A stretch of 8,623 nt of DNA from Cyanobium sp. Its GTDB lineage: Bacteria; Cyanobacteriota; Cyanobacteriia; PCC-6307; Cyanobiaceae. Position 1 is the first letter of the stretch. Each line of letters opens with the position of its first letter. Of the stretch, positions 1,304-8,330 are shown piece after piece. A program made the translations under genes and the position numbers. The stretch spans positions 1-8,623 of the forward strand of contig BJHC01000043.1 in the NCBI GenBank assembly GCA_014191535.1, written 5' to 3'. The notes under the pieces were generated by a model. The model ran no database searches and had not been told where the DNA came from. It saw only the letters and a list, made by a program, of their open reading frames with translations.

Positions 1304-1531
1304 ATGGCCTTCCCCCGCATCAGCCACGATCCCGCCGTCATGGGCGGCAAGCCCTGTATCCGCGGGCTGCGCATCACGGTGGGCACGGTCGTGGGGCTGA
1401 TCGCCAGCGGCAGCAGCCGGGAGCGAATCCTCCAGGCCTACCCACTGCTGGAGCCTGCCGACATCGATGAAGCCCTGGCCTACGCCGCCTGGCGCATGGA
1501 AGAGCGAGAAGAGGCGCTGGTCCTGAGCTGA
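1304..1531 (+). CDS. DUF433-family antitoxin
   Basis: This 75-residue protein belongs to the DUF433 family, small DNA-binding antitoxins usually coded just before a DUF5615 PIN-like toxin. The signature GGKPCIRGLRITVGTVVGLI (residues 14-33) is followed by ASGSSRERILQAYPLLEPAD and the terminal IDEALAYAAW helix, all typical of the family. Length is normal. Such antitoxins bind and block the toxin and normally repress their own promoter. The stop codon shares one base with the start of the toxin gene (TGATG, 1529-1533), the usual translational coupling. That toxin gene is broken, so this is now an orphan antitoxin. No clear ribosome-binding site precedes the ATG. Its promoter must lie in 1234-1303, between it and the divergent small membrane gene. 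Confidence 0.88.
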   Translation: MAFPRISHDPAVMGGKPCIRGLRITVGTVVGLIASGSSRERILQAYPLLEPADIDEALAYAAWRMEEREEALVLS

Positions 1532-1924
1532 TGGCCAGGCTCCTGGTCGACATGGCTGTTTCAACGCAACAGCCTCTCGACCGAATGGATCCCCCTGTTG
1601 CGGGCCGCCGGCCATGAAGCGGTGCACTGGTCGGAGGTGGGTGATCCAAGGGCGCCGGATACGGTCCTGATGCAGTGGGCGATCGCCCACGGCTACGCCG
1701 TCTTTACGCACGACCTGGACTTCGACACGATGCTGGCCCTGAGCGGTGCCGATTGACCCAGCGTGCTTCAGGTGCGCTGCCTGAACGTCCTGCCCGAGGC
1801 GATCGGCACGCTGGTGCTGTCACTGCTCAAGAGCTACGGCGCCGAGATCGAGCAAGGGGTGCTGATGGTCGCCGATGAACGCCGCGAGCGGGTGCGCATC
1901 CTGCCCCTGAAGCGATCACCCTGA
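1531..1924 (+). pseudogene. DUF5615 (PIN-like) toxin, broken by a frameshift and a nonsense codon
   Basis: The gene starts well: ATG at 1531 encodes MARLLVDM, a normal start for this family with a catalytic-type Asp at residue 7. After codon 8 the frame is lost across about 13-16 extra bases (about 1555-1570) and runs into TGA at 1615-1617. In the +1 frame from 1568 the family sequence resumes: NSLSTEWIPLLRAAGHEAVH, WSEVGDPRAPDTVLMQWAIA, HGYAVFTHDLDFDTMLALSG, AD. It then meets TGA at 1754-1756, where the family usually has Gly (GGA to TGA would be one change). Beyond it PSVLQVRCLNVLPEAIGTLV and the rest continue to TGA at 1922-1924. The Asp pair in THDLDF is the expected PIN-like metal-binding motif. 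With two independent lesions the RNase-like toxin should be inactive. The whole gene remains recognisable, so inactivation seems fairly recent. Confidence 0.85.
1679..1686. repeat. HIP1 octamer GCGATCGC
   Basis: This is a perfect copy of the highly iterated palindrome 1 of cyanobacteria, here extended to the 12-base palindrome GGGCGATCGCCC (1677-1688). It lies inside the broken toxin gene. It supports a cyanobacterial host but carries no local function that I can assign. Confidence 0.55.
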
Positions 1925-1979: not shown

Positions 1980-2264
1980 ATGGGCGTCCCTCTCCCCCGG
2001 CCAGCGGCCCAGGCCGCCAGGCTTGAGGCCCCGATCGAGGAGTGGCCCTACCTGGGGCAGGAGGTGCTCGTGCCGGCCCGCAGCCGCAAGGTATGCATGA
2101 CGTGCCACTGGTTTCGTCATCACGCCGGTGTGAACTGCATCCCCCTGCTCACCTGCCAGCTGCACCAGGGGCTGCTGGGCCAGGGGGAGCACCTCACTCA
2201 CCGCTGCCTGGGCTGGACCGACGACATGGTGCGCCAGCGGGGCTGGGCACCGGAGGTGGCATGA
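1980..2264 (+). CDS. Unrecognised five-cysteine small protein, first gene of the predicted LexA operon
   Basis: I do not recognise a named family for this 94-residue protein; similar short cysteine-containing hypotheticals occur in picocyanobacteria. The N-terminal 35 residues are Pro/Ala-rich. The core holds five cysteines in the order C39-x2-C42-x10-C53-x5-C59-x16-C76, with His at 43, 47, 48, 62 and 71. This layout could hold a zinc ion or a redox centre. No signal peptide or membrane helix is visible, so it is probably cytoplasmic. The start is set by GGAG six bases upstream and by the LexA-box match just before it. Its TGA overlaps the ATG of the LOG-like gene (ATGA, 2261-2264), so the two should be translated together. 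A role in the DNA-damage response is inferred only from the operator. Confidence 0.75.
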   Translation: MGVPLPRPAAQAARLEAPIEEWPYLGQEVLVPARSRKVCMTCHWFRHHAGVNCIPLLTCQLHQGLLGQGEHLTHRCLGWTDDMVRQRGWAPEVA

Positions 2265-2773
2265 GCAACCGGCGAACGGTGGTGGGCGTGATGGGTGCGG
2301 GGGAAGGTGCCTCGGCTGCAGCCATGCGTCTGGCCGAGGAGCTGGGGGAATGCATCAGCGCCCGGGGCTGGGTCCTGCTCACCGGTGGCCGGCCGGCGGG
2401 GGTGATGGCAGCGGCCAGCCGCGGCGCGGCTCGGGTGGAGGGGCACCTGGTGGTGGGGGTGTTGCCCGGTGAGGGGACCGGTGACGACAGGCAAAGCACG
2501 GCGGACCTGGATCTGGCCGTGTTCACGGGCATGGGTAAGGCCCGCAACGTGATCAACGTGCTCAGCGCCGATGTGGTGGTGGTGTGCGGTGGCGGCGGCC
2601 CCGGCACTGCTTCGGAAGCCGCCCACGCGCTCAACGGTGGCAGGCCGCTGATCCTTCTGGCGGTGCCGGTGCTGTGGAGTGAGTTCTTCTGCTCGCTAAG
2701 TGGAGCGGTGGAGACCGCGAGTGAGGTGCAAGAGTGCTGCCGGTTGATCGAGGCCCGACTTACGGAGGCATGA
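2261..2773 (+). CDS. LOG-like / TIGR00725-family Rossmann-fold protein (SLOG superfamily)
   Basis: This 170-residue protein has the marks of the LOG/lysine-decarboxylase-like group: a glycine-rich opening strand-loop VVGVMGAGEG (residues 7-16), LLTGGRPAGVM (39-49), MGKARNVINVLSADVVVVCG (91-110) and the signature GGGGPGTASEAAHAL (110-124), corresponding to PGGxGTxxE. Members bind nucleotides or nucleotide-like ligands. LOG proteins release cytokinin-type bases from their ribotides, while the short TIGR00725 branch has no firm activity. Usual length for that branch is about 150-180 residues, so this copy is complete. The frame is open further upstream (ATG at 2042), but ATG 2261 matches the family start and forms the ATGA overlap with the preceding gene. 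It also overlaps the following gene by four bases. Confidence 0.82.
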   Translation: MSNRRTVVGVMGAGEGASAAAMRLAEELGECISARGWVLLTGGRPAGVMAAASRGAARVEGHLVVGVLPGEGTGDDRQSTADLDLAVFTGMGKARNVINVLSADVVVVCGGGGPGTASEAAHALNGGRPLILLAVPVLWSEFFCSLSGAVETASEVQECCRLIEARLTEA

Positions 2774-3024
2774 GCCGGCCATCACCTCGCGTCTCCCTGA
2801 CCCCGCAGGAGGGTTGGCTGAGTGACGACCGCCAGGTGCTGCGCTTCCGCCCGACCCGCTGGGATCGCCACATTCAGCGGCTGGAGATCACCAGCGGGGA
2901 GTTGCTTCCAGGCGAGCCGGTTCCGCTGCTCAAGAACCGCCGGGAGATCAGCCAGGATGAAGCTCTCAAGCTGTGGACCGCCAGGCGCCAGGAGGGCTGG
3001 AGACCCACTCAGCCCCAGTGGTGA
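2770..3024 (+). CDS. DUF1651 family protein
   Basis: This 84-residue protein matches the DUF1651 family of Prochlorococcus and Synechococcus by pattern. It has an early GWLSDD (residues 15-20), a middle RFRPTRWDRH (25-34), then LLKNRREISQDEALKLW (53-69) and a terminal EGWRPTQPQW (75-84). The family consists of small basic proteins of unknown function, often present in several copies per genome. The ATG at 2770 overlaps the preceding stop (ATGA), so it is the third gene of the operon behind the LexA box. The frame is open back to an upstream start at 2734, but that lies inside the LOG-like gene and lacks family similarity. No function is inferred beyond possible DNA-damage control. Confidence 0.8.
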   Translation: MSRPSPRVSLTPQEGWLSDDRQVLRFRPTRWDRHIQRLEITSGELLPGEPVPLLKNRREISQDEALKLWTARRQEGWRPTQPQW

Positions 3025-3193: not shown

Positions 3194-4504
3194 TCAGGCG
3201 CCCCGCACGACAGCACTCAGCAGCGACAGGTTGATTAGGACGATGATGCTGGCGCACAGCCAGCCCGCGGCCTGCAGAGCGAGCGGCGCTCTGAGCTTGC
3301 CCATCAGACCGCGCCGCCCGCAGAACCACACCAGCGGGATCACGGCGAAAGGCAACTGCAGCGACAGCACCACCTGGCTCAGCACCAGCAGATTTGTTGT
3401 GGCCCGTTCCCCGAACAGGATCACCGTGGTCATCGCCGGAATCAGGGCGAGGCCGCGGGTGAGCAGCCGCCGTTTCCAGTCCGGCAGCCGGATCTGCAGA
3501 AACCCCTCCATCACGATCTGGCCGGCCATCGTGGCCGTGAGCGTCGAGCTCTGGCCAGCCGCCAGCAGGGCCACGCCGAACAGCACGCTGGCGAGCGAGG
3601 TGCCCAGCATCGGCGTCAGCAACCGGTAGGCCTCGCTCAGGTCGGTGACCGGCTGCGGTAGCCGTCCGTAGAAGCTGCCAGCGGCCAGCACCAGGATCGA
3701 GACATTGATCAGAAAGGCCAGGCTGAGGGCGATCAGGGTGTCCCAGGTGCTGTAGGCCAGGGCCCTGGCCTGGGCCCGCACCCCGCCGATCCAACGGCGG
3801 GTTTGCACCAACGAGGAATGCAGATAGAGGTTGTGGGGCATCACCGTGGCCCCGAGAATGCCGGCGGCCAGAAACAGCTGCTGCCCGTCCCTGAGGCTCG
3901 CGGCCTGGGGGATGAAGCCCTGGCCCACCTGGCCCCAGTCCGGCTGCAGCAAGAACATCTCCACCGCGAAGCAACCCCCCACCAGGGCGACCAGGGCGAT
4001 CACCAGGGCCTCCAGCCGGCGGATCCCGAAGCGCTGCAGGGCCAGCAGCAACAGGGTGTCGGCGGCGGTGAGGCCCACCCCCCAGGGCAGGGGCAGGCCG
4101 AACAGCAGCTGCAGGGCAATGGCGCTGCCCACCAGTTCGGCCAGGTCGCAGGCAATGATGCCCACCTCGGCCAGCAGCCACAGGGGAATTCGGCAGAACC
4201 GCGGCAGAAGCTGGCTGCAGGCTTGGGCCAGATCCAGCCTTGTGGCAATGCCCAGCCGGCAGCAGAGCGACTGGAGCACCATCGCCATCAGGCTGGAGAG
4301 GCCGATCACCCACAGAAGGCGGTAGCCGAACTGGGAGCCGGCCGCCAGATCCGTGGCCCAGTTGCCCGGATCCATGTAGCCCACGGCCACCAGGTAGCCA
4401 GGGCCAAGCACCCGCAGGAAGGTGCGCAGCATGCCCAGGCCGGCAGGCACCTCCACCGTCTGCGCATTGGTACGCGCGGCGGTGCCCAGCGGTGCATCAG
4501 GCAT
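3194..4504 (-). CDS. mntH: Nramp-family divalent metal transporter (MntH type)
   Basis: This 436-residue inner-membrane protein is of normal length for bacterial Nramp transporters, which bring in Mn2+ (and Fe2+, Cd2+ and similar ions) with protons. The metal-site motifs are intact: DPGN at 45-48 in the first helix (GYMDPGNWATDLAAGSQFGY) and A219-x-x-M222-P-H-N in the sixth helix (GATVMPHNLYLHSS), with His229 nearby. About 11 hydrophobic helices can be traced. It lies 101 bp downstream of the VKOR gene on the same strand and has no clear Shine-Dalgarno or promoter of its own, so it may be co-transcribed with VKOR. A hairpin lies between them. Its own metal preference cannot be read from the sequence; the Met in the site fits soft or transition metals such as Mn2+ and Cd2+. 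Confidence 0.93.
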   Translation of the reverse strand: MPDAPLGTAARTNAQTVEVPAGLGMLRTFLRVLGPGYLVAVGYMDPGNWATDLAAGSQFGYRLLWVIGLSSLMAMVLQSLCCRLGIATRLDLAQACSQLLPRFCRIPLWLLAEVGIIACDLAELVGSAIALQLLFGLPLPWGVGLTAADTLLLLALQRFGIRRLEALVIALVALVGGCFAVEMFLLQPDWGQVGQGFIPQAASLRDGQQLFLAAGILGATVMPHNLYLHSSLVQTRRWIGGVRAQARALAYSTWDTLIALSLAFLINVSILVLAAGSFYGRLPQPVTDLSEAYRLLTPMLGTSLASVLFGVALLAAGQSSTLTATMAGQIVMEGFLQIRLPDWKRRLLTRGLALIPAMTTVILFGERATTNLLVLSQVVLSLQLPFAVIPLVWFCGRRGLMGKLRAPLALQAAGWLCASIIVLINLSLLSAVVRGA

Positions 4505-4605: not shown

Positions 4606-5559
4606 TCAGAAGTCGCGAGGACCTGTGTAGCCACTGAGATCAGCGAGAGTACCCAGCGGCTTGACGCCCGAATCCAAAACGCCCTTGATCTGCCAGCTGG
4701 GATAGCCCTGAACCCCCTGCTGCTTGCACAGCTGCGCCTGGCTGTTGGCGCCGTCTTCGGCACATTCGATCACTTGGAGCTTGGCGGCGGCCTCCTTGCC
4801 GAAGAGCTCCTTCTGGTCATGGCAGTGGGGGCACCAGTACGCCGTGAACACCCGGGCACCACTGCTGGTCAGGTGCTCCGCCAGAGCAATCTTGGCCGGC
4901 GAACTGGCGCTGACGACAGCTGGAGCCGCCCGTCCGCTTTGAGCGACAGGCTGGTCCGCCGAGGCTGCCCAGCCCAGTCCCAGCAGACCGACCAGAAAGG
5001 CCGTCATCACTCCGCGAAAGATCAGTTGGCTGCGGTCGATCCAGTCACCTCCAACCAGGCTCAACAGGAACAGCGCGAGGCTGAGGGCGGCAGACACCAC
5101 ACAGAAGGTGCAGAAGGCCTTGATCTCAAAGACCAGGAGCCCCATCAGCACCATGCTGAAGACGGCCATGCCGCTGCAGGTGAGGAACAGCGCCCACCGA
5201 TTGCCCTCCGATCCAGGGGCCCGCAGACCTCCCCGCAGCAACGGCAGCAGGGCCAGCAGGAGCACCGTGGCGTAGGCAAGGAACCCAAAGAGAGAAAGCG
5301 GCTGGCCCAGCAGCGTGCCCCAGGCGCTGCCGAGCACCTTGTCGCAGCCATCGCTGCCGCCAGGACAGGACAGGCTGCCGATCAAGCCCCAGCGCTTGGC
5401 GGTGATCGAGCCGGTGTCGACCAAGCCGATCGTGGCGAGCACGGCCATGGTGAGCCGCACCCAGGGCCGGCCTGGCTCCTGGCCGGCCCGACGGCTGGAG
5501 AGAGGTTTGGTTCGCGTCGCGCTGCTCACAGGCTGAGAGAAGGTTGGAGATGCCGCCAT
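4606..5559 (-). CDS. Vitamin K epoxide reductase-thioredoxin fusion (disulfide-forming, VKOR/LTO1 type)
   Basis: This protein of up to 317 residues has an N-terminal four- to five-helix VKOR domain (about 34-198) fused to a periplasm/lumen-facing thioredoxin-like domain (about 222-317). All eight family cysteines are present: loop pair C65 and C72, quinone-side CxxC at C150-T-F-C153, thioredoxin CPHC at C243 and C246, and a further pair C266 and C278. C128 is extra. The enzyme forms disulfides in exported proteins and passes the electrons to quinone; in cyanobacteria and plastids the homologue is linked to photosystem and thiol-protein assembly. The ORF begins at ATG 5559. However, a MerR-type promoter at 5558-5588 points into the gene and its -10 box would overlap that ATG, so translation from that transcript would have to begin downstream, for example at GTG 5529 (codon 11). 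The divergent neighbour is the merR gene, and the Nramp gene follows. Confidence 0.93.
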   Translation of the reverse strand: MAASPTFSQPVSSATRTKPLSSRRAGQEPGRPWVRLTMAVLATIGLVDTGSITAKRWGLIGSLSCPGGSDGCDKVLGSAWGTLLGQPLSLFGFLAYATVLLLALLPLLRGGLRAPGSEGNRWALFLTCSGMAVFSMVLMGLLVFEIKAFCTFCVVSAALSLALFLLSLVGGDWIDRSQLIFRGVMTAFLVGLLGLGWAASADQPVAQSGRAAPAVVSASSPAKIALAEHLTSSGARVFTAYWCPHCHDQKELFGKEAAAKLQVIECAEDGANSQAQLCKQQGVQGYPSWQIKGVLDSGVKPLGTLADLSGYTGPRDF

Positions 5560-5588
5560 TGAAAAGCCTGAAGTGGCTCCAGGGTCAA
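5558..5588 (-). promoter_or_regulatory. MerR-type promoter and operator directed at the VKOR gene
   Basis: On the minus strand, -35 box TTGACC (5588-5583) is followed by a 19-base spacer and TTCAAT (5563-5558). The long spacer is the hallmark of promoters that a MerR-family activator must untwist. Within it lies a dyad whose plus-strand halves are AGCCTGAAGT (5565-5574) and GCTCCAGGGT (5576-5585), seven of ten positions being symmetric. It matches the operator before the ATPase at 17 of 21 positions, plus the shared flank CAAGGG. Orientation points to VKOR, while the regulator gene starts 52 bases beyond on the other side. Confidence 0.72.
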
Positions 5589-5639
5589 GGGCCTAAAGTC
5601 CTCAACAAGGAGTTGGCACCTACCTGGGAGGGAGGATCC

Positions 5640-6056
5640 ATGCAGATCGGCGAGTTGGCACGGTCCACCGGGGTCAAGATCGAAACCATCCGCTACTACG
5701 AACGCGAGCACTTGCTGCCAGTGCCGCAGCGCACGGATGGCAACTACCGCCTCTATTCGCCGCGGCATGTGGAGCAGTTGCGCTTCATCCGCTACTGCCG
5801 CAGCCTTGACATGAGCCTGGAGGAGGTCCGCGTCCTGATCGGGGCGCGGGACGCACCAGCCGGGAGCTGCCGCACAGTGAACGCCTTGCTGGACGAGAAG
5901 CTGGCCGAGGTTGATGCGCGGGTCGATGAACTGCACCAGCTCCAGGGTCAGTTACGGCAGCTCAGGGGGCTTTGCCAGCAACCGGATCCAGGGGAAGCGT
6001 GCGGCATTCTCACCGAACTGAATCGCTCAGCCCGCAGCCAGCCCGTTCCAGCCTGA
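5640..6056 (+). CDS. MerR-family heavy-metal-responsive activator (CadR/PbrR/ZntR type)
   Basis: This is a 138-residue transcription factor. The N-terminal winged helix-turn-helix is IGELARSTGVKIETIRYYER (3-22), followed by a wing with DGNYRLYS (33-40). A long dimerisation helix (about 80-110) leads to the metal-binding C-terminus. Metal-site cysteines of the Cd/Pb/Zn branch are all there: C77 (in AGSC), C112 and C121, with eight residues between the last two. The His-rich tail of Pseudomonas CadR is absent. Such proteins sit on long-spacer promoters and activate them when metal binds. ATG 5640 is chosen because the domain begins there and a strong GGAGG (5631-5635) precedes it by four bases; the longer frame from 5544 would run through the operator. 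Two matching operators, before VKOR and before the ATPase, mark the likely targets. The stop is 15 bases from the stop of the convergent ATPase gene. Confidence 0.92.
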   Translation: MQIGELARSTGVKIETIRYYEREHLLPVPQRTDGNYRLYSPRHVEQLRFIRYCRSLDMSLEEVRVLIGARDAPAGSCRTVNALLDEKLAEVDARVDELHQLQGQLRQLRGLCQQPDPGEACGILTELNRSARSQPVPA

Positions 6057-6071
6057 TCAGAGCGTCCAGGA

Positions 6072-8279
6072 TCAGCTCTTGAGTGGACCAGGGCTGGGCG
6101 GGCGTAGCAGTCGCAGACCATTGGCGATCACGATCAAGCTGGTGCCCATGTCCGCGAAAACCGCCATCCACATCGTGGCATTTCCGGCCACGGTGAGCAC
6201 CAGAAAAATGGCCTTGATTCCCAGCGCCAGGCCAATGTTCTGGCGCAGGATTGAGAAGGTGCGGCGAGAGAGGGCGATCGTTTCCGGTACCCGCATCAGA
6301 TCGTCGTTCATGATCACCACATCGGCAGCTTCGACGGCGATGTGGGTACCGCTAGCCCCCATCGCAAAACCGATGTCCGCCTGGGCCAGGGCCGGCGCAT
6401 CGTTGATGCCATCGCCGGCCATGGCCGCGAATCCATAGCGGGCCTGCAGCTCGGCCACCGCCTCGAGCTTGTCCTGGGGCAGCAGGTTGCTCCGCACTTG
6501 CTCGATGCCGGCCACGGCCGCAATCGCACCGGCGGTGGCTGCGTTGTCACCCGTGAGCATCACCGGGGTGACGCCGAGGACCCGCAGGGCCTTCATGGCG
6601 GCCGCCGAGCTGGGCCGAACGGTGTCGGCAACGGCGATCAGGGCGAGCACGCCGCTGTCATCCGCCAGCAGGCTGAGCGAGCGGCCCTGGCGCTCGTGAA
6701 CCTGCATCGACGCCTCCAGTGCGCTGGAGCAGAGCCCCAGCTCCTCGATCCAGCGGTGATTGGCCAGCATCAGCGGCCGCCCCGCGATCAGGCCGCGCAC
6801 CCCCCGCCCTGGCAGGGCCTCGAAGGCCTCCACGGCCAGCCGCTCGCCATCGAGGCCTGCTGCAACCGCCCGCGACACGGGATGGTCGGAGCGCTCCGCC
6901 AGGCTGCTGGCCAGCTGTTTGAGAACGCCAGCGTCTGCCCCTTCTTGCTGAGGGGAGAAGGCCACCAGCTTGGGCTGGCCCAGCGTGATCGTGCCGGTCT
7001 TGTCGAGGGCCAGCACCTTGATCTTGCGGGCCTCCTCGATGTATAGACCGCCCTTGATGATGATGCCGCGACGGGCGGCGGTGGCCAGGCCGCTCACCAC
7101 CGTGACCGGAGTGGCGATCACCAGGGCGCAGGGGCAAGCGATCACCAGCAGCACCAGGGCCTTGTAGATCGCCTGCATGGGGGTGAATCCCAGCAAGGGC
7201 GGCGCCAGCAGGGCAACGGCCAGGGCCACCACGAACACCGCCGGGGTGTAGCGGGCCGCAAAGCGATCCACGAAGCGCTGGATCGGGGCGCGGGAGGCCT
7301 GGGCTTCCTCCACGGCCTGGATGATGCGCGCCAGGGTGCTGAGCGAGGCGGGCGCCGTCACCTGGATCTCGAGGGCGCCGCCCTGGTTGATTGTGCCCGC
7401 AAACACCTCATCGCCTGGGCCTTTGTCCACCGGCAGGCTTTCGCCGGTGATCGGGGCCTGGTTGATCGCACTCTCGCCGTTAAGGACCGTGCCATCGAGC
7501 GGCAGCCGTTCCCCTGGGCGGACCCGCACCACATCTCCGATGGCCACGGCACTGGCGGCCACGCGCTGCCAGCGGCCATCGCTCTGGCGGATCTCCGCCT
7601 CGTCGGGGGCCAGGGCCATCAGGCTGGTGATCGCCTGGCGGGCCCGCTCCACCGCCCGAGCTTCGATCGCTTCGGCCACGGCATAAAGCGCCATCACCAT
7701 GGCGGCTTCCGGGAAGCGGCCGATCAGGAAGGCGCCCGTGACCGCCACGCTCATCAGCGCATTGATGTTGAGCCGGCCCTGGCCCAGGGCTGCGAGGCCC
7801 TTGCGAAACACGGAGAAGCCCGCCAGGGCGATCGCGGCGATGGCGATCCCGATCTCCAGCAGCTCATGGCCCGGGAAGGCGGGAACGACCAGATGCAGCA
7901 GCTCCGCTGTGATCGCCAGCGCCAGGGAACCCCCCAGACGGATTCGTTCACGGCGCCGTTCGGCGCGGGTCTGGGCGGCGGACGGCCGGTGATCGGCGCT
8001 GATCGGCTCCGGGTTGAAGCCCAGCCGCCGGATCACCGCTAGGGCGGTGCTCAGTGCAGCGGCTTCGGCATCGATCGCCAGAACGCGCTCGGCCAGCTGG
8101 AATCTCAGGCCGCGGATGCCGTCAACACCTGCGAGGGCATGGCGGATCTCGCCTTCCTCGGTGGCGCAATCCATCGCGCTGATCCGAAAAAGCACTTCCG
8201 TACCGACGGCCGGCTTCGGCTCCGTGGTGGCTCCGGCCTTCTGCCCGCTGGTTCCGCTGCTGCAGCAATGTTCTGCCAT
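6072..8279 (-). CDS. P1B-type heavy-metal-exporting ATPase (ZntA/CadA, Zn/Cd/Pb)
   Basis: This 735-residue inner-membrane pump uses ATP to expel divalent soft metals. The N-terminus carries C5-C6 and one HMA-like domain with MDCATEE (36-42). Eight membrane helices are visible as pairs at about 115-158, 172-205, 345-396 and 680-722. Catalytic parts are complete: actuator TGE (278-280), transmembrane metal motif C382-P-C384, phosphorylation DKTGT (D426), HP motif S464-D-H-P467, TGDN (577-580) and GDGINDAP (622-629). K689 and D710 (in FADMGTS) correspond to the charged residues typical of the Zn/Cd/Pb subgroup rather than Cu pumps. Start ATG 8279 has AGGA a few bases upstream and lies about 14 bases after the expected transcript start of a MerR-type promoter. 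The gene is convergent with merR, which is predicted to control it. Zn, Cd and Pb cannot be told apart by sequence alone. Confidence 0.95.
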   Translation of the reverse strand: MAEHCCSSGTSGQKAGATTEPKPAVGTEVLFRISAMDCATEEGEIRHALAGVDGIRGLRFQLAERVLAIDAEAAALSTALAVIRRLGFNPEPISADHRPSAAQTRAERRRERIRLGGSLALAITAELLHLVVPAFPGHELLEIGIAIAAIALAGFSVFRKGLAALGQGRLNINALMSVAVTGAFLIGRFPEAAMVMALYAVAEAIEARAVERARQAITSLMALAPDEAEIRQSDGRWQRVAASAVAIGDVVRVRPGERLPLDGTVLNGESAINQAPITGESLPVDKGPGDEVFAGTINQGGALEIQVTAPASLSTLARIIQAVEEAQASRAPIQRFVDRFAARYTPAVFVVALAVALLAPPLLGFTPMQAIYKALVLLVIACPCALVIATPVTVVSGLATAARRGIIIKGGLYIEEARKIKVLALDKTGTITLGQPKLVAFSPQQEGADAGVLKQLASSLAERSDHPVSRAVAAGLDGERLAVEAFEALPGRGVRGLIAGRPLMLANHRWIEELGLCSSALEASMQVHERQGRSLSLLADDSGVLALIAVADTVRPSSAAAMKALRVLGVTPVMLTGDNAATAGAIAAVAGIEQVRSNLLPQDKLEAVAELQARYGFAAMAGDGINDAPALAQADIGFAMGASGTHIAVEAADVVIMNDDLMRVPETIALSRRTFSILRQNIGLALGIKAIFLVLTVAGNATMWMAVFADMGTSLIVIANGLRLLRPPSPGPLKS
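7828..7835. repeat. HIP1 octamer GCGATCGC
   Basis: This is a second perfect copy of the cyanobacterial HIP1 palindrome, inside the metal ATPase gene. Its presence in the metal-export gene suggests this module has resided in, or come from, a cyanobacterial genome. Confidence 0.5.
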
Positions 8280-8299
8280 GGTCCTGTCATCCAGACCCC

Positions 8300-8330
8300 A
8301 GCAAACAGCCTGTAGTCACTTCAGGGTCAA
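8300..8330 (-). promoter_or_regulatory. MerR-type promoter and operator of the metal ATPase gene
   Basis: On the minus strand, -35 box TTGACC (8330-8325) is followed by a 19-base spacer and a weak -10, TTTGCT (8305-8300). The spacer contains a dyad whose plus-strand halves are AGCCTGTAGT (8307-8316) and ACTTCAGGGT (8318-8327), eight of ten positions symmetric around one central base. It closely resembles known CadR/ZntR-type operators (TTGACCCT...AG-T--CTA-AGGGT pattern). Transcription would start near 8293, leaving a leader of about 14 bases that contains AGGA before the ATG at 8279. Confidence 0.8.

Follow-up and report, generated by a model that had tools for sequence, protein, structure and literature searches.

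A probable CadR-type regulon of Cyanobium whose predicted second target is a VKOR-NRAMP unit

Descriptions of metal resistance usually cover the sensing of a metal together with its export or storage. In Pseudomonas aeruginosa, the regulator CadR was found to activate in vitro the divergent cadA gene and not cadR (PMC12301328; this and the other papers cited are quoted from the parts of their text available to us), suggesting that the side faced by a promoter matters. CadR-PbrR sites have been accepted on the basis of a 21-bp site, a distance of 7 bp from its centre to the -35 box and a spacer of 19-20 bp (PMC5045206). As for protein disulfides, mutation of dsbA or dsbB makes Escherichia coli sensitive to Cd and Zn, which for dsbA has been explained by metals binding free thiols (PMC7598926), and the oxidation of lumenal proteins, PsbO among them, has been reported for VKOR/LTO1 proteins (PMC4400859, PMC6805722). 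Here we describe a stretch of 8,623 nucleotides from Cyanobium sp. (hereinafter, the window), i.e., positions 1 to 8,623 of contig BJHC01000043.1 (contig C43 of genome G000), in which a CadR-type sensor appears to be wired to a disulfide-forming enzyme and a manganese importer.

From right to left, the window harbors a metal-export ATPase gene (minus strand), cadR (plus strand), a VKOR-thioredoxin gene (minus strand) and an NRAMP gene (minus strand), cadR being convergent with the ATPase gene and divergent from VKOR. The locus looks like a new variant of the CadR regulon, having the VKOR-NRAMP unit as a predicted second target. We consider it probable that its two CadR-type operator-promoters, one serving the ATPase gene and the other VKOR-NRAMP, are both switched on by CadR upon binding of Cd, Pb or Zn, and that they act through the mechanism proposed below. 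The control of both the ATPase and VKOR genes by one MerR-type regulator had been claimed in an original prediction, and it is supported by the assignment of the regulator to the CadR family, the geometry of the promoters, the conservation of the sites and the existence, in rearranged loci, of a separate VKOR dyad away from cadR. The same prediction had treated VKOR alone as the second unit, overlooking the NRAMP gene that comes after VKOR in all the 14 loci with an open VKOR (it is truncated by a contig end in L049); the unit is probably composed of VKOR and NRAMP.

The two operator-promoters and the genes they face

The VKOR-facing promoter (5558..5588, minus strand) has a -35 box TTGACC (5588-5583), a -10 box TTCAAT (5563-5558) and, between them, the dyad at 5565-5585, AGCCTGAAGTGGCTCCAGGGT. 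The ATPase-facing promoter (8300..8330, minus strand) is built in the same way, with a -35 box TTGACC (8330-8325), the dyad at 8307-8327, AGCCTGTAGTCACTTCAGGGT, and a -10 box TTTGCT (8305-8300). Direct reading confirmed what had been noticed beforehand, i.e., that the two dyads are identical at 17 of 21 bases, that CAAGGG comes directly after each of them, and that both are set in TTGACC long-spacer promoters. The centre of each site lies 7 bp from the -35 box and the spacer measures 19 bp in both cases, so that the two sites share the properties by which MerR-class promoters are recognised (a dyad between the -35 and -10 boxes, a 19-20 bp spacer and the 7-bp distance).

A degenerate pattern, searched with up to three mismatches, gave three matches in the window (two with no mismatch and one with three); 200 shuffled sequences averaged 0.03. 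Over the whole host assembly (1,937,170 bases, with computed estimates of 84% completeness and 5.9% contamination, so that a site in the missing part is possible), the same pattern gave 44 matches at up to three mismatches; these two sites were the only ones with no mismatch, none had one and five had two. Since the pattern was derived from the two sites themselves, they were scored separately against the consensus obtained for P. aeruginosa CadR by experimental selection (PMC12301328), ignoring the centre base and using the remaining 20 positions. The ATPase-facing site matched it at 18/20 positions and the VKOR-facing one at 16/20, the next best score in the window being 12. Of 200 first-order Markov simulations, two had a best score of at least 16, and in none did the second best exceed 14. 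The binding of P. aeruginosa CadR was reduced by every mutation tested in the 11-base arms (PMC12301328), which suggests that the VKOR-side site may be the weaker one.

The regulator gene, cadR (5640..6056, plus strand), encodes a CadR-PbrR-type MerR protein of 138 amino acids, which passes the NCBIfam equivalog model TIGR02047 (CadR-PbrR) with 161.7 bits against a cut-off of 151.45 and scores under the cut-off of each of the ZntR, CueR and MerR family models. Its earlier description as a MerR-type metal regulator holds, and its start coordinate has been corrected to 5640. The closest solved relative is CadR (6jgv), with whose cysteines C77, C112 and C121 are aligned; these residues, which we take to correspond to the metal ligands in CadR, occur in all 24 loci (counting the window). 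The protein is predicted to activate transcription in response to Cd, Pb or Zn.

The ATPase gene (6072..8279, minus strand) encodes a P1B-type heavy-metal export ATPase, CadA/ZntA-like, whose CPC motif (residue 382) is kept in the same number of loci (24/24, window included). The protein exceeds the cut-offs of TIGR01525 (588 vs. 346) and of the Cd subfamily model TIGR01512 (499 vs. 314) and, narrowly, that of the copper subfamily model TIGR01511 (404 vs. 397), and it falls under the cut-off of the ZntA models NF008262 and NF033775; the transported metal is thus a prediction.

The VKOR-thioredoxin gene (4606..5529, minus strand) encodes 307 amino acids if read from its likely start, the GTG at 5529-5527 (V11 of the longest open reading frame). 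The original prediction had missed this start; we prefer it to the ATG of that longest frame (5559-5557), because the ATG overlaps the -10 box, would lie upstream of the expected transcript start and is out of frame in three loci (L046, L048 and L050). In the window the GTG comes 28 bases past the -10 box; all 14 open-VKOR loci have it, with a frame open for 306-309 amino acids. The VKOR domain scores above the Pfam cut-off (PF07884) and has solved relatives (4nv2/3kp9), the thioredoxin part remains below its own (19.9 vs. 23.5), and the NCBIfam VKOR model PRK14889.1-4 is not reached (21.1 vs. a cut-off of 120). In the alignment with the solved relative, the membrane CxxC, the loop cysteine pair, the thioredoxin CPHC and the second thioredoxin cysteine pair are all present, and the eight cysteines are conserved across all 84 VKORs aligned. 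In the solved relative these eight cysteines presumably form a redox relay; since the pattern is matched, the enzyme looks active.

The NRAMP/MntH divalent-metal importer gene (3194..4504, minus strand) lies 101 bases past VKOR on the same strand and is its probable operon partner. The protein scores 567.8 bits with PRK00701 (cut-off 430); the DPGN motif is present in 17 of the 17 sequences aligned and MPHN in 16 of them, and Mn or Fe would be the transported metal.

In the mechanism that we propose, CadR would sit on the overlong promoter spacers and, once it has bound the metal, would untwist the DNA, allowing RNA polymerase to start at both promoters, in the manner of the MerR-class activators already known. 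The metal would be exported by the ATPase, and VKOR and NRAMP would be transcribed as a single unit. The quinone-powered VKOR-thioredoxin might close the exposed dithiols of periplasmic or lumenal proteins, so that soft metals could not hold these proteins, and displaced disulfides would be remade; NRAMP might refill the Mn (or Fe) displaced by the toxic metal. A protective function of VKOR in metal stress is plausible. If this is true, metal stress would likely induce both the pump and VKOR, tying the upkeep of protein disulfides to metal detoxification; disulfide formation would be a regulated part of metal defence, and the locus would offer a direct test of whether damage to extracytoplasmic thiols is one of the main toxicities of Cd, Pb and Zn in photosynthetic bacteria.

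Conservation of the locus among relatives

CadR relatives (E 1e-30) were retrieved from 23 of 400 genomes of the family. Twenty of these genomes (21 loci) encode a CadR at least 82% identical to that of the window, and the other three a CadR with 52-53% identity. The 21 loci read, which we take to be these, comprise 13 (L046-L058), seven more and the window; the VKOR side is readable in 20 of them (window included), L058 being cut by the contig end. The ATPase-facing dyad was found in all 21 loci, and the VKOR-facing TTGACC-19-hexamer promoter is retained in 19 of the 20 readable ones (both counts include the window); it has decayed in L054, where VKOR is unrecognisable. Among the 19 VKOR-facing promoters, 21 of the 31 positions are invariant, and the changes with respect to the 31-base consensus amount to two in L046, three in L047, three in L057 and four in L223. 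The distance from the promoter to cadR is variable (51 to 65) and the stretch leading to the GTG shows length changes, yet the 19-bp spacing is fixed. The 14 loci with an open VKOR all retain the VKOR-facing -35 box and its spacing; that is, the dyad is conserved where the cadR-VKOR pair is conserved, as the original prediction would have it. When a related pattern, likewise derived from the two sites, was searched in 151 genomes of the family, all 24 matches with no mismatch fell within the 12 genomes with a CadR at least 82% identical. Elsewhere in the phylum, a search for CadR in 292 drawn genomes (E 1e-22) matched only the window's own genome and one family member.

Fourteen of the 20 readable loci have a VKOR frame that is open from the GTG. 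Of the remaining six, L047, L051, L053, L057 and L216 have the gene deleted or broken, and in L054, where a contig end is nearby, it is unrecognisable. In L216 and L047 almost the entire VKOR gene is absent, with similar junctions, and NRAMP stands directly past the dyad, open in the former and broken in the latter; the genome harboring L216 (G037) contains two copies of the locus, this VKOR-less one and a full one (L215). A remnant-like module was observed at L229 (contig C25 of genome G035, 7116-8733), where an NRAMP gene whose product is 93% identical to the window's is preceded by a C-terminal fragment of VKOR; no cadR or ATPase gene of the module type was found there by tblastn across 10 kb.

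The three genomes with the more distant CadR (G064, G451 and G096) show a rearranged locus, in which the ATPase and VKOR genes are divergent and cadR lies beyond the ATPase gene. Two dyads are located between ATPase and VKOR, one facing each gene; G451 is identical to G064 over this gap, so two of the three genomes are not distinct there. The VKOR-facing promoter reads TTGACC-19-TTTGCT or TTGACC-19-TTTACT, with a GTG 24-25 bases past the -10 box. When the rearranged stretches were scanned for TTGAC dyads (at least 8 of 10 arm positions paired), those two only were found, and none at cadR. The absence of a dyad at cadR and the position of the VKOR-facing one away from it make the latter unlikely to be a cadR autoregulation site in these genomes. 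In G096 NRAMP starts a few bases from the end of VKOR; no NRAMP match was obtained in the G064 genome, and none within the stretches read of G064 or G451.

In L046 (FACHB-13342), VKOR (5884-4958) is only 63% identical to that of the window, compared with 92% for cadR, 92% for the ATPase and 90% for NRAMP, and it clusters with those from the rearranged loci, which would look like an exchange of the VKOR allele.

VKOR lineages at metal loci and other genes of the window

VKOR is near-universal in the family (144/151 genomes, E 1e-10), and the window's genome holds a second copy of housekeeping type (contig C188, 2526-3461; 61% identity). A 56-row tree has the 14 distinct cad-linked VKORs on one side of a branch (100/96) and, on the other, 42 further VKORs of the family, which are those whose loci were examined and not all the family matches. 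In a tree of 84 rows, for which 11 cad-linked sequences were sampled, one row identical to another was dropped and the deep branching outside the family is settled only in part, all 11 cad-linked VKORs group together (100/95) inside the family clade (100/100), and 11 plasmid and two chromosomal metal-linked VKORs belong to another clade (98/99). A neighbouring clade contains five further metal-linked VKORs (L261, L294, L295, L296 and L298) together with unlinked VKORs; L305 is placed elsewhere in the tree. Since the cad-linked and the plasmid metal-linked VKORs are split by well-supported branches, VKOR seems to have been recruited to loci for metal export on at least two occasions, in each case with a regulator unrelated to the other; on the same grounds, one origin for all the metal-linked VKORs is not supported.

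VKORs were found on 22 plasmid records, of which the 14 with at least 80% query coverage were examined by tblastn of flanks of about 4 kb; they include near-copies (L258/L269 and L254/L255). Plasmids are rich in metal genes, and the finding that 13 of the 14 plasmid loci (the exception being L259) carry an ArsR/SmtB, P1B ATPase, CDF or NRAMP gene comes with no computed plasmid background rate. In particular, an ATPase gene is present in 11, an ArsR/SmtB gene in 11 and NRAMP in two. As controls, within about 5 kb, a metal gene was found near none of 17 housekeeping VKORs of the family, chosen by hand, and near eight (one of them, L305, weak) of 43 chromosomal VKORs of other families, i.e., all the non-family rows listed at E 1e-60. 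An unrelated sensor family accompanies the same kind of enzyme on the plasmids of other cyanobacteria. The link between VKOR and metal export is not a one-off, a second VKOR lineage being found by ArsR/SmtB and/or metal-ATPase genes on plasmids. On plasmid1 of Calothrix sp. NIES-4105 (L261, 2061-4900), VKOR is located behind an annotated ArsR gene and an annotated gene for a FAD-dependent disulfide oxidoreductase, another type of redox gene beside a metal-linked VKOR.

Co-inheritance of VKOR with cadR from another phylum is not supported, given that VKOR was found in 0 of 67 more distant CadR loci and that the cad-linked VKORs group with those of the family. These loci (L059-L125, with flanks of up to 6 kb on either side) are 67 of 80 kept from 141 found, and they were searched with a profile built from 30 family VKORs, which recovers VKOR in 57 of 57 plasmid and class-level cyanobacterial loci, its reach to the VKORs of other phyla not having been tested.

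The left part of the window contains genes of other kinds. At 1304-1756 (plus strand) a DUF433 protein precedes a seemingly PIN-like reading frame, and the two resemble a toxin-antitoxin pair, the partner, which we take to be DUF5615 (PIN-like), having a frame that looks interrupted. A SLOG cluster 4 (LDcluster4) protein (2042-2773, plus strand) is followed by a DUF1651 protein (2734-3024).

Alternative explanations and comparison with known systems

Several observations weigh against a CadR regulon extended to VKOR-NRAMP. The VKOR-facing site is the poorer match to the consensus (16/20) and the -10 boxes of both promoters are poor; the promoter has two changes in L046 and four in L223, both of which have an open VKOR. 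Six of the 20 readable loci lack a recognisable, unbroken VKOR, and the ATPase and its dyad persist in them, which indicates that VKOR is dispensable in some lineages and weakens any claim that it is essential for resistance. No metal gene was found near 35 of the 43 chromosomal VKORs of other families or near the plasmid VKOR L259, and VKOR was found in the examined flanks of none of the 67 distant CadR loci. Moreover, an NRAMP importer induced by Cd could also let Cd in.

A broader proposal, which we hold to be doubtful, is that soft-metal resistance in cyanobacteria routinely includes disulfide catalysis as a second arm, recruited on at least two occasions, and that CadR commands ATPase, VKOR and NRAMP, with VKOR-NRAMP rebuilding the manganese cluster of photosystem II, through Mn supply and the oxidation of PsbO, which stabilises the cluster in the lumen, during the expulsion of Cd or Zn. 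The connection of VKOR-NRAMP with manganese and the repair of photosystem II is a speculation.

It might be supposed that NRAMP is the main target, VKOR being a passenger of the operon, and that the purpose of the unit is the refilling of Mn under Cd stress. The rarity of NRAMP in the family (21/151 genomes) and the organization of L216, which has no VKOR and carries an open NRAMP (436 amino acids, 97% identical) directly behind the dyad, would agree with this idea; however, G064 and G451 retain VKOR and its dyad without an NRAMP gene in the G064 genome or in the stretches read of both, NRAMP itself is broken in L047, and the ATPase-VKOR linkage recurs on other plasmids with NRAMP in just two of 14 cases, which makes it quite improbable. 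We likewise lend little credence to an alternative in which VKOR acts on a single client of the metal system, such as a metal-binding or efflux protein of the envelope that requires a disulfide, and not on envelope thiols in general. A client relation could explain why VKORs adjoin ATPases and, in many plasmid loci, CDF exporters, with more than one type of regulator; no client gene common to the CadR loci was identified, a weak point against this alternative in that no search was aimed at cysteine-bearing exported clients.

A divergent region shared with the target is common for MerR-class regulators, and this was counted in favour of a third view, according to which the 5565-5585 dyad is the operator of cadR itself and VKOR is there by an accident of gene order. 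The -35 box is indeed 51 bases upstream of cadR, and the site persists in five loci with VKOR broken or lost (L047, L051, L053, L057 and L216), with changes in L047 and L057. This view is nevertheless highly improbable and was rejected as the leading one, because the -35 box and the 19-bp spacing are directed at VKOR, L054 keeps cadR and has a decayed dyad where VKOR is unrecognisable, P. aeruginosa CadR did not activate its own gene (PMC12301328) and, above all, the VKOR-facing dyad of L227, L228 and L341 is not beside cadR, where the same scan found none; the rearranged loci, as read from their sequences, speak strongly against cadR autoregulation as the only role of the site.

Returning to the CadR regulon with VKOR-NRAMP as its second target, no literature linking VKOR with a metal regulator was found within the open-licence papers searched, mostly at listing level. 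The nearest report, in the text available, concerns a hypothetical VKOR among the genes common to Sulfobacillus plasmids and a plasmid-like region carrying metal-resistance genes (PMC6803676). In E. coli, the loss of disulfide formation by DsbA/DsbB results in Cd and Zn sensitivity, and control by a metal sensor is not described in the part of PMC7598926 available to us. The enzyme of the window shares its two-domain build and cysteine pattern with the cyanobacterial VKOR-thioredoxins (solved 3kp9/4nv2; Synechocystis slr0565; plant LTO1), the alignment having been made with the solved relative only; it differs from them in that its clade is a separate, paralogous one, linked to a metal locus. 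Among the ZiaR/ZiaA-type zinc-export operons on cyanobacterial plasmids, VKOR likewise stands close to the gene of a metal-export ATPase, in some cases together with NRAMP or CDF; in that case, however, the regulator is of the ArsR/SmtB type and VKOR is of another lineage, whereas here the regulator is a MerR protein. A further likeness is with the CadR-cadA system of Pseudomonas (CadR-PbrR group, MerR family), which has the same type of regulator, a closely similar dyad and a long-spacer promoter facing a Cd/Zn ATPase gene; this locus differs from it in that cadR is convergent with the ATPase gene and divergent from VKOR. In Pseudomonas, too, CadR has a second, separate target, zrd (PMC12301328), which encodes a zinc-ribbon protein in place of the VKOR-NRAMP unit predicted here.

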